Of a stretch of DNA of 24,736 nt, positions 3 to 23,940 are shown piece after piece. Position 1 is the first letter of the stretch, and each line of letters begins with the position of its first letter. A model generated the notes under the pieces. It was not told the origin of the DNA. It was given only the letters and a program-made list of their open reading frames with translations, and made no database searches. Source of the stretch: a virus; IMG/VR virus record IMGVR_UViG_3300013233_000055, positions 1 to 24,736 of that record. One strand, 5' to 3'. Both the position numbers and the translations under genes were made by a program.

Positions 3-602
3 TTGGGAGTCAACCAGTCTACAGCTATTACCTGTGTGAAACCCAGCGGCACTGTGAGCCAACTCACTGACACAGCAAGTGGTATTCATCCCCGGCATTC
101 TCAATGGTACATTCGTACAGTGAGGTCTGACAACAAAGACCCACTGACGGAGTTCTTGAAAGACCAAGGGATTCCAAATGAGCCATGTGTAATGAAACCT
201 GACTCTACAACAATCTTCTCTTTCCCTCAGAAATCCCCCCAAGGGTCTGTGATGAGAGACGACAGGACGGCCTTACAGCAGCTTGAAGTGTGGTCCACAT
301 ACCAGAAGCACTGGTGTGAACACAAGCCTTCTATCACAGTGTACGTTAAAGAACACGAGTGGATGACAGTGGGTGCATGGGTGTATGAACACTTTGACGA
401 CGTGAGTGGCATTAGCTTCTTACCCTTCTCAGAGCATACGTACCAACAGGCTCCCTATCAAGATTGCACAGAGGAGCAGTTCCTTGAGATGCAGACAAGG
501 ATGCCTGTGCTAGATTGGGATGCATTGTCTAATTATGAAACAGAGGATTTAACAGAAGGCACACAAACCCTAGCTTGCACAGGAGGATCTTGTGAAATAT
601 GA
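3..602 (+). CDS. nrdJ: Class II (adenosylcobalamin-dependent) ribonucleotide reductase, C-terminal part
   Basis: The reading frame is open to the left edge, so this is the last ~199 residues of a longer protein. It begins with a leucine codon inside a conserved stretch (ITCVKPSGTVS) typical of the barrel of B12-dependent reductases. The chain ends in C192-TGGS-C197-EI. This five-residue cysteine spacing matches the C-terminal pair that re-reduces the active site in monomeric ribonucleoside-triphosphate reductases of the Lactobacillus leichmannii type. The enzyme makes deoxyribonucleotides for phage DNA replication and works with or without oxygen because its radical comes from cobalamin. The active-site cysteines and cobalamin-binding parts lie outside the window. 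The gene ends 21 bases before the next small gene, so it probably leads the + strand cluster. The family call is confident; the monomeric NrdJ subtype is inferred from the tail. Confidence 0.88.
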   Translation: MGVNQSTAITCVKPSGTVSQLTDTASGIHPRHSQWYIRTVRSDNKDPLTEFLKDQGIPNEPCVMKPDSTTIFSFPQKSPQGSVMRDDRTALQQLEVWSTYQKHWCEHKPSITVYVKEHEWMTVGAWVYEHFDDVSGISFLPFSEHTYQQAPYQDCTEEQFLEMQTRMPVLDWDALSNYETEDLTEGTQTLACTGGSCEI

Positions 603-5461: not shown

Positions 5462-5883
5462 TCTGACACCTCAACTGGCAATCTCTTCTCAACTAAAGCC
5501 AATACCTCTGGCGTAGCTACGTCCACGGTGGCCTGTGCGTCAGCACGATCAACATCATCAGTAACTAAATCAGGGTGGCGTGCGAACTTACCATCCTCAT
5601 CCTTATAATCAGGATAGTCAGCGTTATCCAAGGCATCCAATGCCAGCCTACGTTGTGCAGCTTCATAGCTTAGTGTTGCAATTAACAGGGCGTTATCAGA
5701 CTCAATGCGTGCCTTCTCTGCACTCATCTCTTTGTAGAAGTCCGACAACTCTTTCTGCTGTGCTGCATTGCCCCGTGTAAGTTGCTCCCGTTGTGCTGGT
5801 CGATACTTACCATTGATAAGGGCTTGCATGTGTACAGCGATGGTTTGAGCGTCAAAGGTTCTGCTACCCATTAGGTCAATCAT
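5458..5883 (-). CDS. Hypothetical protein downstream of the tail fibre, 141 aa
   Basis: The ATG overlaps the tail fibre stop (ATGA), so translation is probably coupled. The product is soluble and helical: KYRPAQREQLTRGNAAQQKE and FYKEMSAEKARIESDNA, followed by LSYEAAQRRLALDALDN, suggest a coiled coil over about residues 25-90. An acidic segment (YPDYKDEDGKF) and a Val/Glu-rich tail follow. Genes in this position often encode tail fibre assembly chaperones or fibre-associated subunits. No Tfa or other family motif is visible, so that role is inference. Confidence 0.6.
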   Translation of the reverse strand: MIDLMGSRTFDAQTIAVHMQALINGKYRPAQREQLTRGNAAQQKELSDFYKEMSAEKARIESDNALLIATLSYEAAQRRLALDALDNADYPDYKDEDGKFARHPDLVTDDVDRADAQATVDVATPEVLALVEKRLPVEVSE

Positions 5884-8525
5884 TGTACGGCCTCCAGTGT
5901 AATCATGTGTTTGTTAGCTGTTGCCAGCGTCACCGAATATATGAAGCCATCGAATAAGACAGGGGTAAGGTCAAAGTCAAACGGTAGCCCTGTAATCATA
6001 TCAATAGCTGCCACAATCGTACTGCCCTGTGGTGCGGAATAAGCTGTACCGTTCGCATATACAACCTTAGGCGGCGTGGAACCATTAGCACTGTTTAGCA
6101 CTAGCTGCTCCCGTAAGGGCACGGCCTTCATTGATACCCGAACATCGGTAGTTCCATTCACCTGCACGCGATCAAAGCCAAGATCTGTTGTGTCATCTTT
6201 AGCGATACCGCGATGTAATACTTCCAAGCCTTTCAGATAATCATAAGCACCTGCTGTCTCTACTGCGCATATACCAGATGACTTGAGGTATTCAGAGTCT
6301 GTCACTGCACTGGCTGTTAATAGTGCCTTAGAATCTGTACCAAATAGCTGCTTCTCTTGGTCGTACATGAACTTAACCTGCTCTGCCGATGGCGCGGTTA
6401 ATCCCACTTTAAACAGCGCCATATTGTTGTAGCCCGTAGACCACGCTGATGTCGCATTTCCAATCCTTAGCGTAGCTGTTGGGATTGATATATCGGTTGC
6501 CACCGCAAAGCTCTTGACCATGCTCCCGTTGATATAGATATATAGAACCCCAGCGTCCCTGATGAATGATAGCTTTTGCCAAGCGGTGTCACTTGAGCTG
6601 AAACCTGACAGCGAATCATAATTGGCGGCTGCACCCTTCTTAACCCTGAATGTTACGGCAGAAGACCCAGAAGAAATATAAGCGGTAACATGATCTCCGC
6701 CGATGTTCCCTAATTCAAACAAGCTATTGAACTGTAAATTTCCGGTAGCCCACATATCAAACCAGAAATCACCCGTGCCGATGTTGTTCCAATCAGCGCT
6801 CGTAGGTTCCTCGAAATAGTCTACGGCAGACGTAGCGCCATACGTATTAACCCCACCAGCATTCACTGTCTCTGTAACTGTGCCATTCTCTACCAGTGTG
6901 GCTGCCTTGACGCTCCGATCTGCCGACTTGGAGTTGGCCAGAAAGCATCTCACTGTGTTGCCGTGCATCCAGCCTGTGTTGTATAAGCTTGTTATGTAGG
7001 CAACCATGCCACTTGAAGGGTTAGAGGGTTTTCTGTGGAGCAGAGTTACTCCAGATGAACCTCCCAGCATGTTACCTGACATGTGTGACACGCTTCCAAG
7101 GATAGGTAAGTTAGCAATGCTGGCGAAAGTCTGTGAGTAAACCTCTGCAACGCCTGCGCTTTGCCAGAATTGGAACACGTCAGCGGTTAGCGTCTTGTGT
7201 ACCTGCACCGTGCGTCGGAATAGCGACCCCGGTGAGTTGTCTACGCCAAAGGCAAAGCCATCATCGAACGTCACAACCTCACCGTACCCAGCGCCACTGG
7301 CTGTAGCGTCCCAAACATTGTCAGAGCCAACACCGTCCCATCCGATCTGTGAAACACCGCCGTTTGTGGCTGCATAAATCGTAGACACTGGCACACCATT
7401 AACCAACGGAGCGTTCTTTAGCGTTGTGATTGCTACGGAGTTGACTGCGTTGCTTGCGATGCCATCGGTCACTCTACTGCTATGTGATAGATTCGCATTC
7501 CTTTCTGATATATCCCCTTTATATCTCCATGTTGCACCTACCCTCCACAAGTCTCGTAGATCACCAAGGAAATCAATTACATTTGCCCCTCCTCCTGCCC
7601 CTGAGTCGGCGGCCACTAACTTCCCGTTATGGAACGCTATGGAGGCTATAGAGTTGTTATAAAGCATCTGCCCTATCCCTGCATTAAACACCATCCACAT
7701 CGGAACACCCGGATCAGTCAAGTCATAAATAGTAACCTTAGCCGCTTCTGCAACTATCAAGCCCTTAGCAATACCACCTAGCTTAGCGCCGCGTGTGGCT
7801 GTGTTCAGAGCCTCTGTGTTCCAAGAGCGATGCACGTCATTCATCCACTGTCTACGTGCTTCTGGATGCCAGTCAGCTACGTCAAACTGAACTACGGCTA
7901 CTGCGTTGGCTGTGATGGTGGCTGTGATAGCAGCGAGGCCACCAAGGTTAGTGCGCTCGGATGCTGTCAGTATCTTAGCATCTGCGCCCTCAACCATGCT
8001 ATCCATAGAGAAGACATCAGCTTGAATTACATTTGGATCGTAATCGGAGACCAGCATATCGCCTGTACCTGAGCCCGCCACACCCGGATCGCCTTTAGCT
8101 CCAGTGGCACCATTCAGTACGGTGAATGTACCGATGGTTATTGTCTCCCCCGAATCACCCCAAGCGGTATAGGTATCGACCGTGCCTTCCGCCCCTGTCC
8201 CAGAGGTTAAGGATGTGTGGTCAATATCCTGCCCTGTTGCACCTGTATTACCTGTAGATCCAGTAGCGCCATTCAGCACGGTAAATGTGCCTTTAACCAC
8301 GGTCTCACCCACATCACCCCATGCGGTGTAGGTGTCAACTGTTCCGGCTACTCCTGTGCCAGCCGTTTTGCTAGTGTGGTCAATAGTTACAGACACAACT
8401 GTTCCATCGCCTAAAACCATCTGGCTATTGGCAGGGTCATGCTGCACTAAAAGCTGGTCTAAATCAGCACCCTGCAAGGTGCCTCCGGCCTGTTGTATCG
8501 CGTCAAAACTTACTGGTACTGCCAT
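5880..8525 (-). CDS. Tail fibre protein with collagen-like segments and LamG-type domain
   Basis: This is an 881-residue adhesin of the tail tip. Residues 49-142 hold two copies of a ~41-residue beta-rich unit (DHTS..., ending GTFTVLNGATG), each followed by a short collagen-like Gly-X-Y run (GATGSTGNTGATG at 86-98; GATGAKGDPG at 139-148), which would trimerise. Residues ~255-545 contain recurring units such as SIASIAFHNGKLVAA and NVIDFLGDL that look like a propeller-type repeat region. Residues ~583-730 form a laminin-G/concanavalin-like domain (WQKLSFIRDAG, YIYINGSMVKSF, ending SAEQVKFMYDQEKQLFG). The remaining ~150 residues are beta-rich and contain no recognised domain. It should bind the host surface. 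The ATG is six bases after GGAGG located in the last codons of the hub gene. Confidence 0.82.
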   Translation of the reverse strand: MAVPVSFDAIQQAGGTLQGADLDQLLVQHDPANSQMVLGDGTVVSVTIDHTSKTAGTGVAGTVDTYTAWGDVGETVVKGTFTVLNGATGSTGNTGATGQDIDHTSLTSGTGAEGTVDTYTAWGDSGETITIGTFTVLNGATGAKGDPGVAGSGTGDMLVSDYDPNVIQADVFSMDSMVEGADAKILTASERTNLGGLAAITATITANAVAVVQFDVADWHPEARRQWMNDVHRSWNTEALNTATRGAKLGGIAKGLIVAEAAKVTIYDLTDPGVPMWMVFNAGIGQMLYNNSIASIAFHNGKLVAADSGAGGGANVIDFLGDLRDLWRVGATWRYKGDISERNANLSHSSRVTDGIASNAVNSVAITTLKNAPLVNGVPVSTIYAATNGGVSQIGWDGVGSDNVWDATASGAGYGEVVTFDDGFAFGVDNSPGSLFRRTVQVHKTLTADVFQFWQSAGVAEVYSQTFASIANLPILGSVSHMSGNMLGGSSGVTLLHRKPSNPSSGMVAYITSLYNTGWMHGNTVRCFLANSKSADRSVKAATLVENGTVTETVNAGGVNTYGATSAVDYFEEPTSADWNNIGTGDFWFDMWATGNLQFNSLFELGNIGGDHVTAYISSGSSAVTFRVKKGAAANYDSLSGFSSSDTAWQKLSFIRDAGVLYIYINGSMVKSFAVATDISIPTATLRIGNATSAWSTGYNNMALFKVGLTAPSAEQVKFMYDQEKQLFGTDSKALLTASAVTDSEYLKSSGICAVETAGAYDYLKGLEVLHRGIAKDDTTDLGFDRVQVNGTTDVRVSMKAVPLREQLVLNSANGSTPPKVVYANGTAYSAPQGSTIVAAIDMITGLPFDFDLTPVLFDGFIYSVTLATANKHMITLEAVQ
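8100..8222 (-). repeat. Tail fibre repeat unit, copy 2
   Basis: This encodes residues 102-142 of the tail fibre, the second ~41-residue unit. It shares DHTS, GTVDTYTAWGD, GET and GTFTVLNGATG with copy 1. The copies differ at scattered codons, so the duplication is not recent. Confidence 0.7.
8259..8381 (-). repeat. Tail fibre repeat unit, copy 1
   Basis: This encodes residues 49-89 of the tail fibre and is separated from copy 2 by 36 bases encoding collagen-like Gly-X-Y triplets. The arrangement is a beta-rich unit, a collagen-like linker, another beta-rich unit and another linker at the N-terminal, tail-proximal end of the fibre. Confidence 0.7.
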
Positions 8526-16712: not shown

Positions 16713-17957
16713 TTATACGCCTTTACAGAAAGACTCTGCATGACGAACTGCTACATCAACGTCTTGGAAGGCACGCAATACGATACCACCAGAAGCCGCT
16801 TTAGTTGCAATATCAACAGACAGGTCGAGAACGCCCCACATGCCGATGATTACGTCATTGAAGTTACCAAACAGAATGCTATCAAGAGCCATCTGGTTAG
16901 AAATATCCATGTTGTAACCATTCACTTGGCCGCCTTCCATCAGGAAACGACCAGAGCCAGAATCAAGCAATGAAGTTTTCAAGTAACCCTGCATTGCAGG
17001 AGTTGAAACATACTGCAACGCACCCATCAGCGCATTGTCAGTCAACACGGCAGTTTCAAAAGCAACCAACTCAGCGAACGTAGGTGCGTTGTTCACAAGG
17101 ATGGTTGAAGTATTGATGCCAGTTGCATTCAAGATACCAGTAGGCTGGCCAGCAGCGCCGGAACCAGAGATTGCGCCCAAGTCGATAGCCAATGCTGCGC
17201 CAGCGATCAAGTCAGAGCGAACCAGAGCTTCTGCATCAGGTGTACCCTGCTTCAACAGACGGCGAGTGATTGGAACTGCGCCACCGATTGTGCGAGGAGT
17301 CATTGTTACCTGTCCGATGGTCACATCAGAATCAACAGCATCAGCATCTTCGGCTAACCATGTGAAGGTCGAACCAGCAGTTTGCTTAGGAATATCAACA
17401 TTACCAACCAAGCCTGCCATTACACGACCGCCTGCACGCAAAACAACAGAGTTGTTACGCAACTGGTCGATGAATGAGCCAGCCATGTGTTCAGTGGCTA
17501 CCAAGTTACTGGTATCGGTGGTATTCATAGGCGGAGTTACGCGAGTGAAGTCAGTGCTGCGCTGAACATCGAAAGGGACAAAAAAGCCCTTAGCTTCACG
17601 GTCAAGCTTTTCAGCAATGTCCAATGAGCATTCACGTTCAAACTCAGCTTTAGACCAATCGCCAGAGGCAGCAGCGCGGATGGCATTCATAATAGAATAA
17701 CCACGAACTTCTTTTTCTGTCAGGCCAATTTCAGTTGCAGGTTTAGAAACGATTACTTGATCGCTCTGCTTGTCCAGTAATGCAACGCGGAATGAATCAA
17801 CAGACTTACCGCTATTGATGAAGTCGCGTGCCAAGCCTGCAGCTTCAAACTTTTCGCCTAACTCTGCAATCTGTGAGCCGCGAGTACGCTCATCTTTTTG
17901 TGCCGTGGCACGTTCAGCAGCGAGATCAATCGCTGGTACTTTATTTTCTTCGGACAT
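16713..17957 (-). CDS. Major capsid protein from internal start (alternative product)
   Basis: The codon for M177 of the fusion is an ATG preceded by TTAAGGAGACTATT, a strong ribosome binding site in the middle of the frame. Starting here gives a 414-residue protein (MSEENKVPAIDLAAERATAQ onward), the right size for an HK97-type capsid protein with its delta domain. Independent initiation would solve the stoichiometry problem of a 1:1 protease fusion. The site is seen; the product is inferred. Confidence 0.6.
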   Translation of the reverse strand: MSEENKVPAIDLAAERATAQKDERTRGSQIAELGEKFEAAGLARDFINSGKSVDSFRVALLDKQSDQVIVSKPATEIGLTEKEVRGYSIMNAIRAAASGDWSKAEFERECSLDIAEKLDREAKGFFVPFDVQRSTDFTRVTPPMNTTDTSNLVATEHMAGSFIDQLRNNSVVLRAGGRVMAGLVGNVDIPKQTAGSTFTWLAEDADAVDSDVTIGQVTMTPRTIGGAVPITRRLLKQGTPDAEALVRSDLIAGAALAIDLGAISGSGAAGQPTGILNATGINTSTILVNNAPTFAELVAFETAVLTDNALMGALQYVSTPAMQGYLKTSLLDSGSGRFLMEGGQVNGYNMDISNQMALDSILFGNFNDVIIGMWGVLDLSVDIATKAASGGIVLRAFQDVDVAVRHAESFCKGV

Positions 17958-18485
17958 AATAGTCTCCTTAATGTTTGTTATAATAATATCATTTTCATCG
18001 GTGTAGCTTCTGCCAACCTGACAATTCGGGTCGGCAGGTATCGAAACGAAACTAAGCTCCAAAGGTTGCCACTTTGTCGCTCTGTACTGGTCAAGTCCTT
18101 CTTTTCCAGCCTTTTCCTTTCGCATTTCATGGATTCGGTAGCCCACGCTAACCGCGCCTCTAATTCCGTCAACAATATCGTTAAATACTTCCTTAGCGCG
18201 TTTGCTCCGGCCAAAACGCACCGTTGCACGGCCAATCTTATCAGGGTCAATCGACACCTTATCAACCACACCAACATGATCGTCTGGATTGTGTCCAACA
18301 AGGACAGCGCCACGCTGCTCCAATCGTCCCAAATCTACCGATGACGGCGAGTGGTCTAGGATTTCCATTCCGAAGTGACGCTCAACAGCCATCTCAGTGG
18401 AAAATACAATATCCACCGTCCTTTTTTCTTCGTTGATCGTGCTTTCATCAACAACAGACTCTCTATATAGAGTGCTAATCTTCAT
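16713..18485 (-). CDS. Prohead protease-major capsid protein fusion (HK97 type)
   Basis: One 590-residue frame joins two functions. Residues 1-170 are an HK97-type prohead protease: RTVDIVFSTE, catalytic His in VLVGHN (H65), catalytic Ser in AVSVGYR (S113), and PLELSFVSIPADPNCQVG near 141-158. Residues ~177-590 are the major capsid protein: a helical delta (scaffold) segment, then HK97-fold blocks such as FIDQLRNNSVVLRAGG, GGAVPITRRLLKQGTPDAE, LDLGAISGSG-like and PTGILNATG. The protein should assemble, cleave itself and mature into the shell. An in-frame ATG at 17957 with AAGGAG seven bases upstream probably also yields free capsid protein. It overlaps the portal gene by 11 bases. Confidence 0.87.
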   Translation of the reverse strand: MKISTLYRESVVDESTINEEKRTVDIVFSTEMAVERHFGMEILDHSPSSVDLGRLEQRGAVLVGHNPDDHVGVVDKVSIDPDKIGRATVRFGRSKRAKEVFNDIVDGIRGAVSVGYRIHEMRKEKAGKEGLDQYRATKWQPLELSFVSIPADPNCQVGRSYTDENDIIITNIKETIMSEENKVPAIDLAAERATAQKDERTRGSQIAELGEKFEAAGLARDFINSGKSVDSFRVALLDKQSDQVIVSKPATEIGLTEKEVRGYSIMNAIRAAASGDWSKAEFERECSLDIAEKLDREAKGFFVPFDVQRSTDFTRVTPPMNTTDTSNLVATEHMAGSFIDQLRNNSVVLRAGGRVMAGLVGNVDIPKQTAGSTFTWLAEDADAVDSDVTIGQVTMTPRTIGGAVPITRRLLKQGTPDAEALVRSDLIAGAALAIDLGAISGSGAAGQPTGILNATGINTSTILVNNAPTFAELVAFETAVLTDNALMGALQYVSTPAMQGYLKTSLLDSGSGRFLMEGGQVNGYNMDISNQMALDSILFGNFNDVIIGMWGVLDLSVDIATKAASGGIVLRAFQDVDVAVRHAESFCKGV

Positions 18486-20519: not shown

Positions 20520-23500
20520 TTATCCCCATCCCCCTGCTTTAAATCCCATCGAAGACTTGTTTTTCCGCCTTCTTCTACTTCTGGGTTTTGCCATTTCTTT
20601 AACAATATCTACAACTTCCACTTTATCAACAGGCTTTTCATCGCCGCCCTGTTGACTATCAACAACCTTTAGCCTAGATTCCAGCACCTTCATGTTTGCA
20701 TTGAGCAACTCGAAGGCAGCTAAGGCATAAACCCTGCAATCAAGCGCCTCATTGCGCCTGCCGCCTGACTTTTTAACCCACGATCTCACGCCGCGCCCTT
20801 TAACATACTTGGTGATCGCCTTCTCAGCGGTAAGCTGTTTAAAGTAATCTTCCGAATAATCCGCAGGAAAGTGGCAGAAACCAGCGCCCACGTCAAGCAC
20901 TTTAAGTCTTGAGTACACCATATCCTTTGCCGTATCCACCCCGACAGAGAATAACCTTACTTTTTGTGAGTTACCTCTTGTCGGTCTTGACACCAACGGC
21001 TTGCCCATTCCCCCCACGCCTTTGATGGCAAACACGCGCCTTGCAAAGCGCGTCTTGCAGAACTTATAAACGTCCTGCGTATGATGCCCACCTGTATCAA
21101 TGCACACTGCGGACACGGGCATCATGCGGCCTAATTCATGCTCAAACTTTCGCATAAGAAGGTCATCGAATTGCTGCCATATCTCCACCCCTGACGGGTC
21201 GCCATATATAACCTCATATCCAAGCGACCAAGTTTCGCTATCCGCGCCAACACCAAGATACTCAATCTCAAGCCTGTCATCCTGCACGTCTGCCCCCGCC
21301 ACTATAACCAAGACACCTTCTGGTGCCTCCGCCGGATACACCTCACATCGTTCGCTCAAGTCCCCTTCGTCAATGGACTCACCTGATTCTTCCCACGTTT
21401 CTCCAAGGGCTGTGTTGATCCACGTCTTCAATGTTTCCGGCAGCTTCTTGGCCTCTACAAAGTTAACTGCCATTTCGCCAAACGTCACCCAAGGGGAATA
21501 CAGCTCATTAATATGGAACCCTGCAATATGACTCTCTGATGTAGGACTCCACTCGCCAGCCTTTACCATTGCTGTCTTTTCTCTGTCATTGATCTCACCG
21601 CCGCACTCTTGACACCAATACGCTGCTTTATGCGGCTCTTTGTCCGGCCAGTGGACGTGCTTCCATTCAAACTTGATTGACTCGTCGCAATGAACGCATG
21701 GCATGAAGTAGTATCGCTGATCTGATGACATAAAAGCGGCCTCTATTCGCGACTCCCCTTTAATAGTAGGGGTGGAGCAAATGAATAATTTTCTATTGTG
21801 GTATGTTGTTGACCTTTTTTTAGCCAAGGCTATGGGGTCACCTTCCGACCCTGCCGACACCGGGAACCTGTCCACCTCGTCACAAAGCACGATCCTGATT
21901 GGCCTAGAGGCCAATGATGCAGGGCTGTTTGCCCCTGCCATAGTGATGTGGCCGCCTGCAAAAGAATTATGAGTGGGGACTAGCTGGTCTCCTGCTAGAA
22001 AAAGGTGGCTATCATTGTCTACCGTTATGCACTTGACCGCGACCGAGTCCACTCGCTCTATTCGGTCGATATGCCTCAGCAAAGCCCCTGTCCCTTTAGG
22101 GGTTCTGTTCATCTGCCTATTGAGCTTCCTAGAAAGCTTAAAAACAGGAATATCTCTAGAGTTCACTGTAAACTCGACACGCCAAGAACTGGTGGTCTCA
22201 ACCCTTTTCTTTCTAGGGGACATTCCAAGCGACCTAGCTATAAACATGGCAGAGTCTATTAACTGCTCATTGGTATTTGAAAACACACACAGGCCATCTA
22301 TTCTGATCGAGCCATCAGTGTCCATCAATCCCCTTAGCAACTCAGCCCTTTGATGAGAGCTTCCCATAAGATACTCATCTGGAACGTGCTTATTATTTAT
22401 CAAGTCGGCTGTCCTCATTCTTTTAAGGAGGGAGTTGCCAACCTTACTATCAATAATGCCAGCGCCCCTTGCTGCCCTTGCCATTTGCCTACGACACTCG
22501 CTGCACTTGCGGTCTTTATTTCTTCCAACCTCCCTTCTGTCATGCCCTCTTGGACAAATGGGGTTGTCGGCCATTGTAAAATCCATACTCACCTTGAGAA
22601 GACCTCTACTGCTGATGTGAGTAACCTCTGCCTTGTCAACCACTGCGCCAACGTGACTTATGATCTCTCTGTCAGACTCGTCACACACAAAGAAAGACTG
22701 GTGTGACATGCCATCTCCTAGCCATACCCCCAGCGCATACGGATGCAGCACCAGCCCTCTTGACTCAGGCATGTCTACGGGAAGGGTGTTTTCTATATAG
22801 AATTTTCTCCTGCGGCCATTGTCATACCTAAGACCTGACTCCATAATCGTCTGCGTCGTCATGGACTGTGGCGCAGACACACCAGAAAACCCTTTTTCCC
22901 TAACAACCCATAAATGCTCTGCATCGCAGACGATGTCAGTGCCGTCCGAAAAGACAACTTTATAACATGGACGATTATGATATGTACCAGTAACGCCTAT
23001 AATATTGCAAGGTTTTCCGTCAGCCCCATACACTACGTCAGACACGCCAAGAGCTTCCACCGTCTTCATCCCTTCACTCGTCAAGACAGGCGTGTTAATA
23101 CACAATGCTTTATGCAATATTGTACTTCCAGAGTCTCTTGACCGCGCATCTTTCACGCAATCCTTGATGGCTGGAGTGTCTCGCAACATGGGTGAAAGCC
23201 TGTCTTTAGACCACGTCTGAGCCATCTCAAGAGTAGGTTGAAGCAACAGCATTGTGCTTGGGTCTTGGTGCATATAATAACCCACTGTATTGTTTAACAG
23301 CTCAGTGAGTCCCACCTGTGCGGATTTAATAACCACAACCTCTTGTAGGGTCGGGTCGGAAATCGCATCCATAATTCCACGCTGATACTCAGCCCTTGAG
23401 GTTCGCCACGTTCCTGCCTCAGCAGATGATTCGGGCGACAGCTTGCGGTAGAGGTCAGCCCATTCAGATACAGTTAGTTTAGGTGGGGATTTCCATAGTG

Positions 23501-23537
23501 CCATCTTCTCCGTGAGCAAGCTCATCCAGTGCTTCAA
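20520..23537 (-). CDS. Terminase large subunit (GpA family) interrupted by an intein
   Basis: The 1005-residue precursor should splice to a 624-residue DNA-packaging ATPase and nuclease. The N-extein (1-143) contains LTVSEWADLYRKLSPESSAE and the GpA-type Walker A variant VVIKSAQVGLTE (K71), where the first lysine replaces the usual one. The C-extein starts SFAGGHITMAGANSPASLAS, then Walker B with catalytic Glu in VLCDEVDRF (553-557), and STPT at 588-591. A C4 zinc site (C614, C617, C642, C645) and nuclease acidic residues in AGADVQDDRLEIE (D750) and VCIDTGGH (D814) follow. The intein is residues 144-524. The longest frame starts with TTG after GGAGAGG; ATGs at 23525 and 23504 (GGAG nearby) are alternatives. 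It overlaps the small terminase gene. Confidence 0.93.
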   Translation of the reverse strand: MKHWMSLLTEKMALWKSPPKLTVSEWADLYRKLSPESSAEAGTWRTSRAEYQRGIMDAISDPTLQEVVVIKSAQVGLTELLNNTVGYYMHQDPSTMLLLQPTLEMAQTWSKDRLSPMLRDTPAIKDCVKDARSRDSGSTILHKALCINTPVLTSEGMKTVEALGVSDVVYGADGKPCNIIGVTGTYHNRPCYKVVFSDGTDIVCDAEHLWVVREKGFSGVSAPQSMTTQTIMESGLRYDNGRRRKFYIENTLPVDMPESRGLVLHPYALGVWLGDGMSHQSFFVCDESDREIISHVGAVVDKAEVTHISSRGLLKVSMDFTMADNPICPRGHDRREVGRNKDRKCSECRRQMARAARGAGIIDSKVGNSLLKRMRTADLINNKHVPDEYLMGSSHQRAELLRGLMDTDGSIRIDGLCVFSNTNEQLIDSAMFIARSLGMSPRKKRVETTSSWRVEFTVNSRDIPVFKLSRKLNRQMNRTPKGTGALLRHIDRIERVDSVAVKCITVDNDSHLFLAGDQLVPTHNSFAGGHITMAGANSPASLASRPIRIVLCDEVDRFPVSAGSEGDPIALAKKRSTTYHNRKLFICSTPTIKGESRIEAAFMSSDQRYYFMPCVHCDESIKFEWKHVHWPDKEPHKAAYWCQECGGEINDREKTAMVKAGEWSPTSESHIAGFHINELYSPWVTFGEMAVNFVEAKKLPETLKTWINTALGETWEESGESIDEGDLSERCEVYPAEAPEGVLVIVAGADVQDDRLEIEYLGVGADSETWSLGYEVIYGDPSGVEIWQQFDDLLMRKFEHELGRMMPVSAVCIDTGGHHTQDVYKFCKTRFARRVFAIKGVGGMGKPLVSRPTRGNSQKVRLFSVGVDTAKDMVYSRLKVLDVGAGFCHFPADYSEDYFKQLTAEKAITKYVKGRGVRSWVKKSGGRRNEALDCRVYALAAFELLNANMKVLESRLKVVDSQQGGDEKPVDKVEVVDIVKEMAKPRSRRRRKNKSSMGFKAGGWG
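21966..23108 (-). mobile_element. Class 3-type intein with LAGLIDADG homing endonuclease in the terminase
   Basis: The 381-residue insert begins ALCINTPVLTSEG and ends LVPTHN before Ser525. It has no Cys, Ser or Thr at position 1. It has the Trp-Cys-Thr triad of class 3 inteins: W210 in DAEHLW (block B), C503 in VKCITVD (block F) and T522 in PTHN (block G). Class 3 inteins use the block F Cys as first nucleophile. The endonuclease has two LAGLIDADG motifs, LGVWLGDG (269-276) and LRGLMDTDG (401-409), with D275 and D408 as likely metal ligands, so homing may still work. Between them lies a zinc-ribbon-like insert (326-349). The boundaries restore STILHK-SFAGGH, a continuous GpA sequence. Confidence 0.92.
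22491..22562 (-). other. Zinc-ribbon-like insert in the intein endonuclease
   Basis: Residues 326-349 read PICPRGHDRREVGRN then KDRKCSECRR: C328, H332, C345 and C348. The C-x3-H ... C-x2-C layout with an intervening turn is familiar from short DNA-binding zinc modules attached to phage HNH endonucleases. Its place between two LAGLIDADG motifs is unusual. Confidence 0.55.
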
Positions 23538-23940
23538 ATATCAACCTCTCCGCCTCATTCTCTGCCGCCTTAACATCATCAGGGCATACAGCTAAAGCTA
23601 GTTTTTTTGGCAAAGTAAGAAGCTTTGCACGACACTCCATAATCATCTTGCCCATTGCCTCGGACACTTCTTCCGCATTAACCAGAACGCCCTCTTTCTC
23701 AGCCACTTCCATTTCCGTCTTATTGGCCTGTGCTGCCTTGAGCCTTGCAGACTCAGTTTGCAGGTCTAATACTTTTGACCCACCACCCTCGACAGACTCC
23801 ATAATCTTTAGCCTGAGAATGCTCCTTGACTCAAACTTCCCGTCATCGAAAGCGACTAGCCCAGATGACTTTATCCACTTCGATACAGTTCGGTCACAAG
23901 CGCCTATCAGGTCTGCCACATGTGCGATGGATACCCTCAT
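23479..23940 (-). CDS. Terminase small subunit (Nu1-like)
   Basis: This 153-residue protein recognises phage DNA for packaging. Residues 1-50 form a winged-helix/MerR-like DNA-binding head (SIAHVADLIGACDRTVSKWI, then the wing FDDGKFESRSIL). Residues ~63-100 are a charged helix typical of this family (ESARLKAAQANKTEMEVAEK, then GVLVNAEEVSEAMG), followed by a dimer or hetero-oligomer segment (MIMECRAKLLTLPKKLALAV) and an acidic C-terminus that would contact the large subunit. Position immediately before the large terminase confirms the role. Its start overlaps the upstream stop (ATGA), and its 3' end overlaps the terminase frame by up to 59 bases. Confidence 0.88.
   Translation of the reverse strand: MRVSIAHVADLIGACDRTVSKWIKSSGLVAFDDGKFESRSILRLKIMESVEGGGSKVLDLQTESARLKAAQANKTEMEVAEKEGVLVNAEEVSEAMGKMIMECRAKLLTLPKKLALAVCPDDVKAAENEAERLIFEALDELAHGEDGTMEIPT

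Follow-up and report, generated by a model that had tools for sequence, protein, structure and literature searches.

Sequence and predicted structure point to a full-length class 3 intein within the ATPase domain of a gpA-type phage large terminase

Introduction

The large terminase gene of the virus described here, of the lambda gpA type, almost certainly carries a full-length class 3 intein inside its ATPase domain. The DNA analysed (the window) is 24,736 nucleotides long and covers positions 1 to 24,736 of IMG/VR virus record IMGVR_UViG_3300013233_000055. Judged from conserved residues and a predicted fold, the intein is probably competent for both splicing and homing. It is ordinary in kind, and hundreds of phage records hold relatives. 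Its interest lies in its position: no published record was found of an intein at this site, and with other GpA inteins it provides two nearby sites in one gene for the study of intein site change. To those who use inteins it offers a further class 3 sequence; its bearing on phage biology is that of a routine post-translational step in packaging. A preliminary description of the same DNA had proposed a class 3 intein in a GpA-type terminase, and sequence, predicted structure, conserved residues and comparison with empty sites all agree with that assignment.

The host terminase and its gene

The terminase flanks of the insert match the Pfam families GpA_ATPase (PF05876, E=1.2e-83) and GpA_nuclease (PF20454, E=2.6e-96). 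The intein splits the protein between Walker A and Walker B at the junction ...GSTILHK|SFAGG.... The gene and its neighbor comprise the following features:

20520..23504, minus strand: intein-containing large terminase gene, gpA type (Pfam; start from comparison with relative L222)
23109..23504, minus strand: N-extein, with the Walker A region (KSAQVGLT), up to ...STILHK (junction translation, alignment)
20520..21965, minus strand: C-extein, with the +1 Ser, FAGG...GANSP, the Walker B region (IVLCDEVDRF), the nuclease domain and the stop (Pfam, alignment)
23479..23940, minus strand: probable small terminase subunit, overlapping the large subunit (position, as in phage CRP-811)

The open reading frame (20520-23537, minus strand) opens at TTG 23537, a doubtful start. 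The nearest relative, L222, starts MSLWRPPPDLALSDWAD, which fits the MALWKSPPKLTVSEWAD read in the window from ATG 23504; this comparison makes ATG 23504 the likely start and the catalytic Cys residue 492 rather than 503. Uninterrupted terminase relatives reach 66% identity. Among annotated phages, Roseobacter phages CRP-811 and CRP-823 come closest: their terminases are about 55-58% identical to that of the window, and their head and tail genes follow a similar order. The probable small subunit has no Pfam match. Walker A in the window has Leu where many relatives show the lysine of GK[S/T]; the Walker A of lambda gpA has a similarly deviant form.

Elsewhere in the window, a prohead protease (PF04586, weak match) and an HK97-type capsid protein (PF05065) are fused in one 590-residue open reading frame (16713-18485, minus strand). 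The 881-residue protein in the tail-fibre position (5880-8525, minus strand) has collagen-like GATGSTGNTGATG repeats near its N-terminus and no PHROG match. The C-terminal part of a ribonucleotide reductase (3-602, plus strand), truncated at the left contig end, lies on the strand opposite to the structural genes.

Identity of the insert and its class 3 signature

When 21966-23108 is translated on the minus strand, the product is a segment of exactly 381 residues (ALCINTPVLT...LVPTHN) that shares the frame of the terminase and has no stops or frameshifts. This agrees exactly with the 381-residue in-frame insert first reported between Walker A and Walker B. The parts of the intein concerned with splicing are:

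21966..23108, minus strand: class 3 intein, 381 amino acids, Ala1 to Asn381 (translation, PDB matches, conserved residues, AlphaFold, Foldseek)
22788..23108, minus strand, inner border approximate: N-terminal splicing (HINT) part, blocks A and B (phmmer alignment to 6rix residues 1-69)
22908-22916, minus strand: codons of His65 to Trp67
21966..22079, minus strand: C-terminal splicing part, blocks F and G (phmmer alignment to 6rix 108-145)
22029-22031, minus strand: codon of Cys360
21972-21974, minus strand: codon of Thr379
21966-21971, minus strand: codons of His380-Asn381

Class 3 inteins are marked by Trp at B:12, Cys at F:4, Thr at G:5, a position 1 without a nucleophile, and Ser or Thr at +1 (PMC5050341, PMC5222942). 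The insert has all of these markers. Position 1 is Ala, which pairs with Ala1 of 6rix and leaves no Cys, Ser or Thr nucleophile there; block B holds His65 (B:10) and Trp67 (B:12); block F holds Cys360 (F:4), 21 residues before the last; and block G holds Thr379 (G:5), followed by His380-Asn381 and by Ser at +1 of the C-extein. The preliminary reading of an Ala start, the Trp, Cys and Thr of blocks B, F and G, and an HN|S end is thus borne out residue by residue. An alignment of 57 relatives shows no variation at H65, W67, C360, T379, H380 or N381. Counted from TTG 23537, Trp67, Cys360 and Thr379 are Trp210, Cys503 and Thr522 of the reading frame. The earlier proposal that splicing starts at Cys503 appears sound as to the residue, which by homology would be intein Cys360, but not as to its number, given the doubtful TTG (Cys492 from ATG 23504).

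Structural matches point the same way. The top phmmer matches in the PDB are the class 3 Mycobacterium DnaB inteins 6rix, 6riy and 6bs8 (E 1e-22 to 6e-21), with one aligned segment that begins at residue 1 and a second that covers residues 344-381; a match at E=1e-22 excludes chance. The family profile matches the class 3 DnaB inteins in the same way at E=4e-44. A scan for the C-junction pattern Asn-[S/T/C]-F-[A/P]-G-G-x5-GAN gave a single hit in the window and none in 100 shuffles. An AlphaFold model of the insert, with an alignment of relatives as input, has a pLDDT of 93.4 and a pTM of 0.90. In a Foldseek search the top match of the model is PI-SceI (E=2.4e-19); archaeal VMA inteins follow, as do several chains of class 3 DnaB inteins at a TM-score of about 0.8 by target length. 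The predicted fold is that of an intein splicing domain joined to a PI-SceI-like LAGLIDADG homing endonuclease.

Because Ala at position 1 is also found in class 2 inteins, a class 2-like route can be considered, in which the +1 residue attacks directly. Such a route is highly improbable here: the complete Trp-Cys-Thr triplet and the +1 Ser are the features that set class 3 apart, and loss of Cys F:4 fully blocks splicing in the three tested inteins with this signature (PMC5222942).

The endonuclease domain and a zinc-type motif

The preliminary description overlooked both a LAGLIDADG endonuclease and a Cys/His zinc-type motif within the insert:

22104..22754, minus strand, borders approximate: LAGLIDADG homing endonuclease domain (PF14528; PI-SceI profile match, E=7e-20; Foldseek to PI-SceI)
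22713-22715, minus strand: codon of Asp132, an endonuclease motif Asp
22314-22316, minus strand: codon of Asp265, an endonuclease motif Asp
22494..22556, minus strand: CPRGH...CSEC zinc-type motif, within the endonuclease domain (translation; similar motif in 18 of 72 related inteins)

Two LAGLIDADG motifs are present, LGVWLGDG (Asp132) and LLRGLMDTDG (Asp265), and both catalytic Asp residues are kept. The Cys/His motif spans intein residues 185-205 (CPRGHDRREVGRNKDRKCSEC). Counterparts occur in 18 of 72 curated class 3 inteins at various sites, and most class 3 inteins lack it. Carriers of a CxxGH...CxxC motif are L019, L021, L022-L029, L031-L034, L036, L038, L039, L049, L070 and the window. 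Two readings of the motif were set aside. It does not mark the HK|S site, since inteins at various other sites carry it and L282, at the same site, is without it; nor could it be placed in a known family, with nothing convincing in Pfam and a weak match to an HNH endonuclease in PHROGs (E=0.013). As a guess, it might help in DNA recognition.

A further reading is that of a degenerate intein that has kept its signature and lost efficient splicing, on a contig from a defective phage or prophage remnant. The window intein forms a long branch in intein trees, from which some loss of activity is possible, and the contig is linear, lacks end repeats and may be a fragment. However, the insert has no stop or frameshift and keeps all catalytic splicing residues together with both endonuclease Asp residues, the extein is open and conserved, and the fold is predicted with confidence. 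Degeneration is very improbable, and an intein that is probably able to splice and to home remains the preferred reading.

Intein-free alleles and the +1 residue

The STILHK/SFAGG junction was compared with uninterrupted GpA terminases, as had been suggested at the outset. An alignment with six such proteins from annotated phages is gap-free across the junction, and all 58 of the nearest IMG/VR terminase relatives are contiguous there and lack the intein. Their +1 residues are Thr (19), Gln (13), Asn (8), Lys (6), Ser (5), Val (4), Arg (2) and Ile (1). A separate pattern scan, which selected for Ser/Thr/Cys-type codons at +1, returned 120 GpA terminases (Ser 72, Thr 45, Arg 3); the site is spanned by 118 of these 120 alignments, and the segment is absent from the proteins so aligned.

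These comparisons also bear on the idea, raised earlier as a possible refutation, that the segment is a normal domain of homologous terminases, inserted in one subfamily and never excised. Its being in frame would suit a domain of this kind, and nothing else speaks for it. The segment is missing from both sets of terminases, it has a HINT fold with intact splice junctions, and elements of this kind are found both in unrelated terminases and at other positions. An ordinary domain is the least probable of the alternatives, and the segment is better regarded as an intein.

Judged from these alleles, splice-compatible intein-free sites are common. Since intein-free alleles include Ser and Thr at +1, insertion could have occurred without a prior rescue mutation, and there is no need to regard the +1 residue as an adaptation for the intein. 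The very nearest intein-free relatives (L222-L224, 64-66% identity) have Gln at +1, from which the Ser of the window either predates the intein or arrived with it. An AlphaFold model of L222, an empty-site relative, is of low confidence around the site (pLDDT about 50-58).

Abundance, insertion sites and relationships

Relatives of the insert are numerous. GenBank holds 730 matching phage records, all below 60% identity; in 685 the match extends over at least 80% of the insert. In IMG/VR, an alignment-based scan found at least 577 stretches encoding relatives among the 600 candidates listed; 80 were taken, and 72 curated examples were tallied. A single scan for prophage copies in bacterial genomes returned one match, weak and partial.

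Position 1 is Ala in 59 of the 72 curated inteins; Ala1, singled out in the preliminary description, is thus the usual state. Position -1 is Lys in 59 of the 72 (L022-L101), also outside P-loops, as if the lineage preferred K|S/T junctions, and the +1 residue is Thr in 46, Ser in 25 and Cys in one. The inteins of L087 and L090 have an apparent Cys at position 1.

The insertion point had also been called typical. Almost all mapped inteins with GpA hosts lie instead in the P-loop at GK|T/S (extein residue 78 in 16, residue 80 in one), whereas the window intein lies at extein residue 144. GpA inteins as such are not new, and HK|S is a minority site. Junction-pattern scans found this same site occupied in three other IMG/VR contigs (L019, L021 and L282), all with class 3 inteins in GpA terminases. 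No description of the HK|S-FAGG insertion site was found in the searchable literature, and the literature search found no paper on an intein in a GpA terminase. In GenBank, Acidovorax phage ACF1 has a P-loop intein in its GpA terminase (L280; MZ547449.1, 208-3432), with an apparent Cys1 as well as the class 3 Trp and Cys of blocks B and F and a terminal THN. L281 (89-133, minus strand) has an intein-like end of another sort, NAFIASGILTHN|C, which is class 1-like and precedes GIGG...RGAN...VVIDDP, perhaps in another terminase type.

In intein trees, sequences group according to the terminase type of their host (0 of 200 in a shuffle control). The window intein falls within the GpA group (93/87) on its long branch. 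L019 and L021 pair firmly (100/99) and are joined by L282 (93/94), and the window intein has no clear affinity to these three. Constraining same-site inteins to group together is not rejected (p-AU 0.155 for three, 0.384 for four), so that these sequences would allow a single origin. Each of the two sites, the P-loop GK|T/S and HK|S/T, has Lys at -1 and Ser or Thr at +1. It is conceivable, though rather doubtful, that one class 3 lineage moved between the two sites in GpA, perhaps aided by a zinc-binding module grafted onto its LAGLIDADG endonuclease. If so, the window would document ectopic homing of class 3 inteins inside one gene.

Proposed splicing and homing mechanism

By analogy with characterised class 3 inteins (PMC5222942, PMC7664689), splicing would begin after translation with an attack by Cys360, together with His65 and Thr379, on the Lys(-1)-Ala1 bond, forming a first branched thioester. 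The acyl group would then be transferred to the +1 Ser. Cyclisation of Asn381 would follow, and the exteins would be joined as ...STILHK-SFAGG... to give a working terminase. Terminase alleles that lack the intein would be cut by the endonuclease close to the HK|S codons and would then acquire the element through recombination; homing of this kind may be how the intein persists.

With its ATPase domain interrupted by the insert, the unspliced protein is probably inactive, and packaging likely waits for splicing. The earlier suggestion of a control point for late function holds to this extent, that packaging would need splicing if the ATPase were blocked, but no sign of regulation was seen. The nearest known conditional splicing is that of mycobacterial DnaB inteins, whose host protein is not a terminase.

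Comparison with known systems

The class 3 mycobacterial DnaB inteins (M. chimaera, M. smegmatis; 6rix, 6riy, 6bs8) share with the window intein Ala1, His65, Trp67, the HN end and the predicted splicing fold. His65 and Trp67 are numbered alike in the Msm, Mle and Bvi inteins, and the Cys and Thr lie at equal distances from the C-terminus (Cys124 of 145 in MchDnaB1). In contrast to the 381-residue window intein with its endonuclease and terminase host, they are mini-inteins of 139-145 residues that lack an endonuclease and reside in a replicative helicase.

The closest solved whole-chain fold is PI-SceI, the endonuclease of the yeast VMA intein (E=2.4e-19). PI-SceI has a eukaryotic V-ATPase host and is only about 16% identical to the window intein, and its splicing is class 1.

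The mycobacteriophage TerL1 and TerL6 inteins (PMC5050341) and terminase class 3 inteins such as those of Gaia and Nebkiss are likewise LAGLIDADG-bearing inteins of terminase ATPase domains, and the Nebkiss intein is 34-35% identical to that of the window. However, their hosts are not of GpA type and their sites differ. In the main mycobacteriophage survey, the only terminases with inteins were Terminase_1, Terminase_6 and a terminase-like protein (PMC5050341); GpA is not among its intein hosts.

The P-loop class 3 GpA inteins (IMG/VR L024, L025, L026, L075 and others) share the host family and intein tree group of the window, have Lys at -1 in most cases and Ser or Thr at +1, and often carry the zinc motif. 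Their insertion point is the GK|T/S of the Walker A loop, at extein residue 78, as against 144 in the window. L019, L021 and L282 have class, GpA host and site (K|T/S F/Y-[AP]-GG) in common with the window, yet their inteins are only 33-38% identical to it; L019 and L021 have Thr at +1, and L282 lacks the zinc motif.
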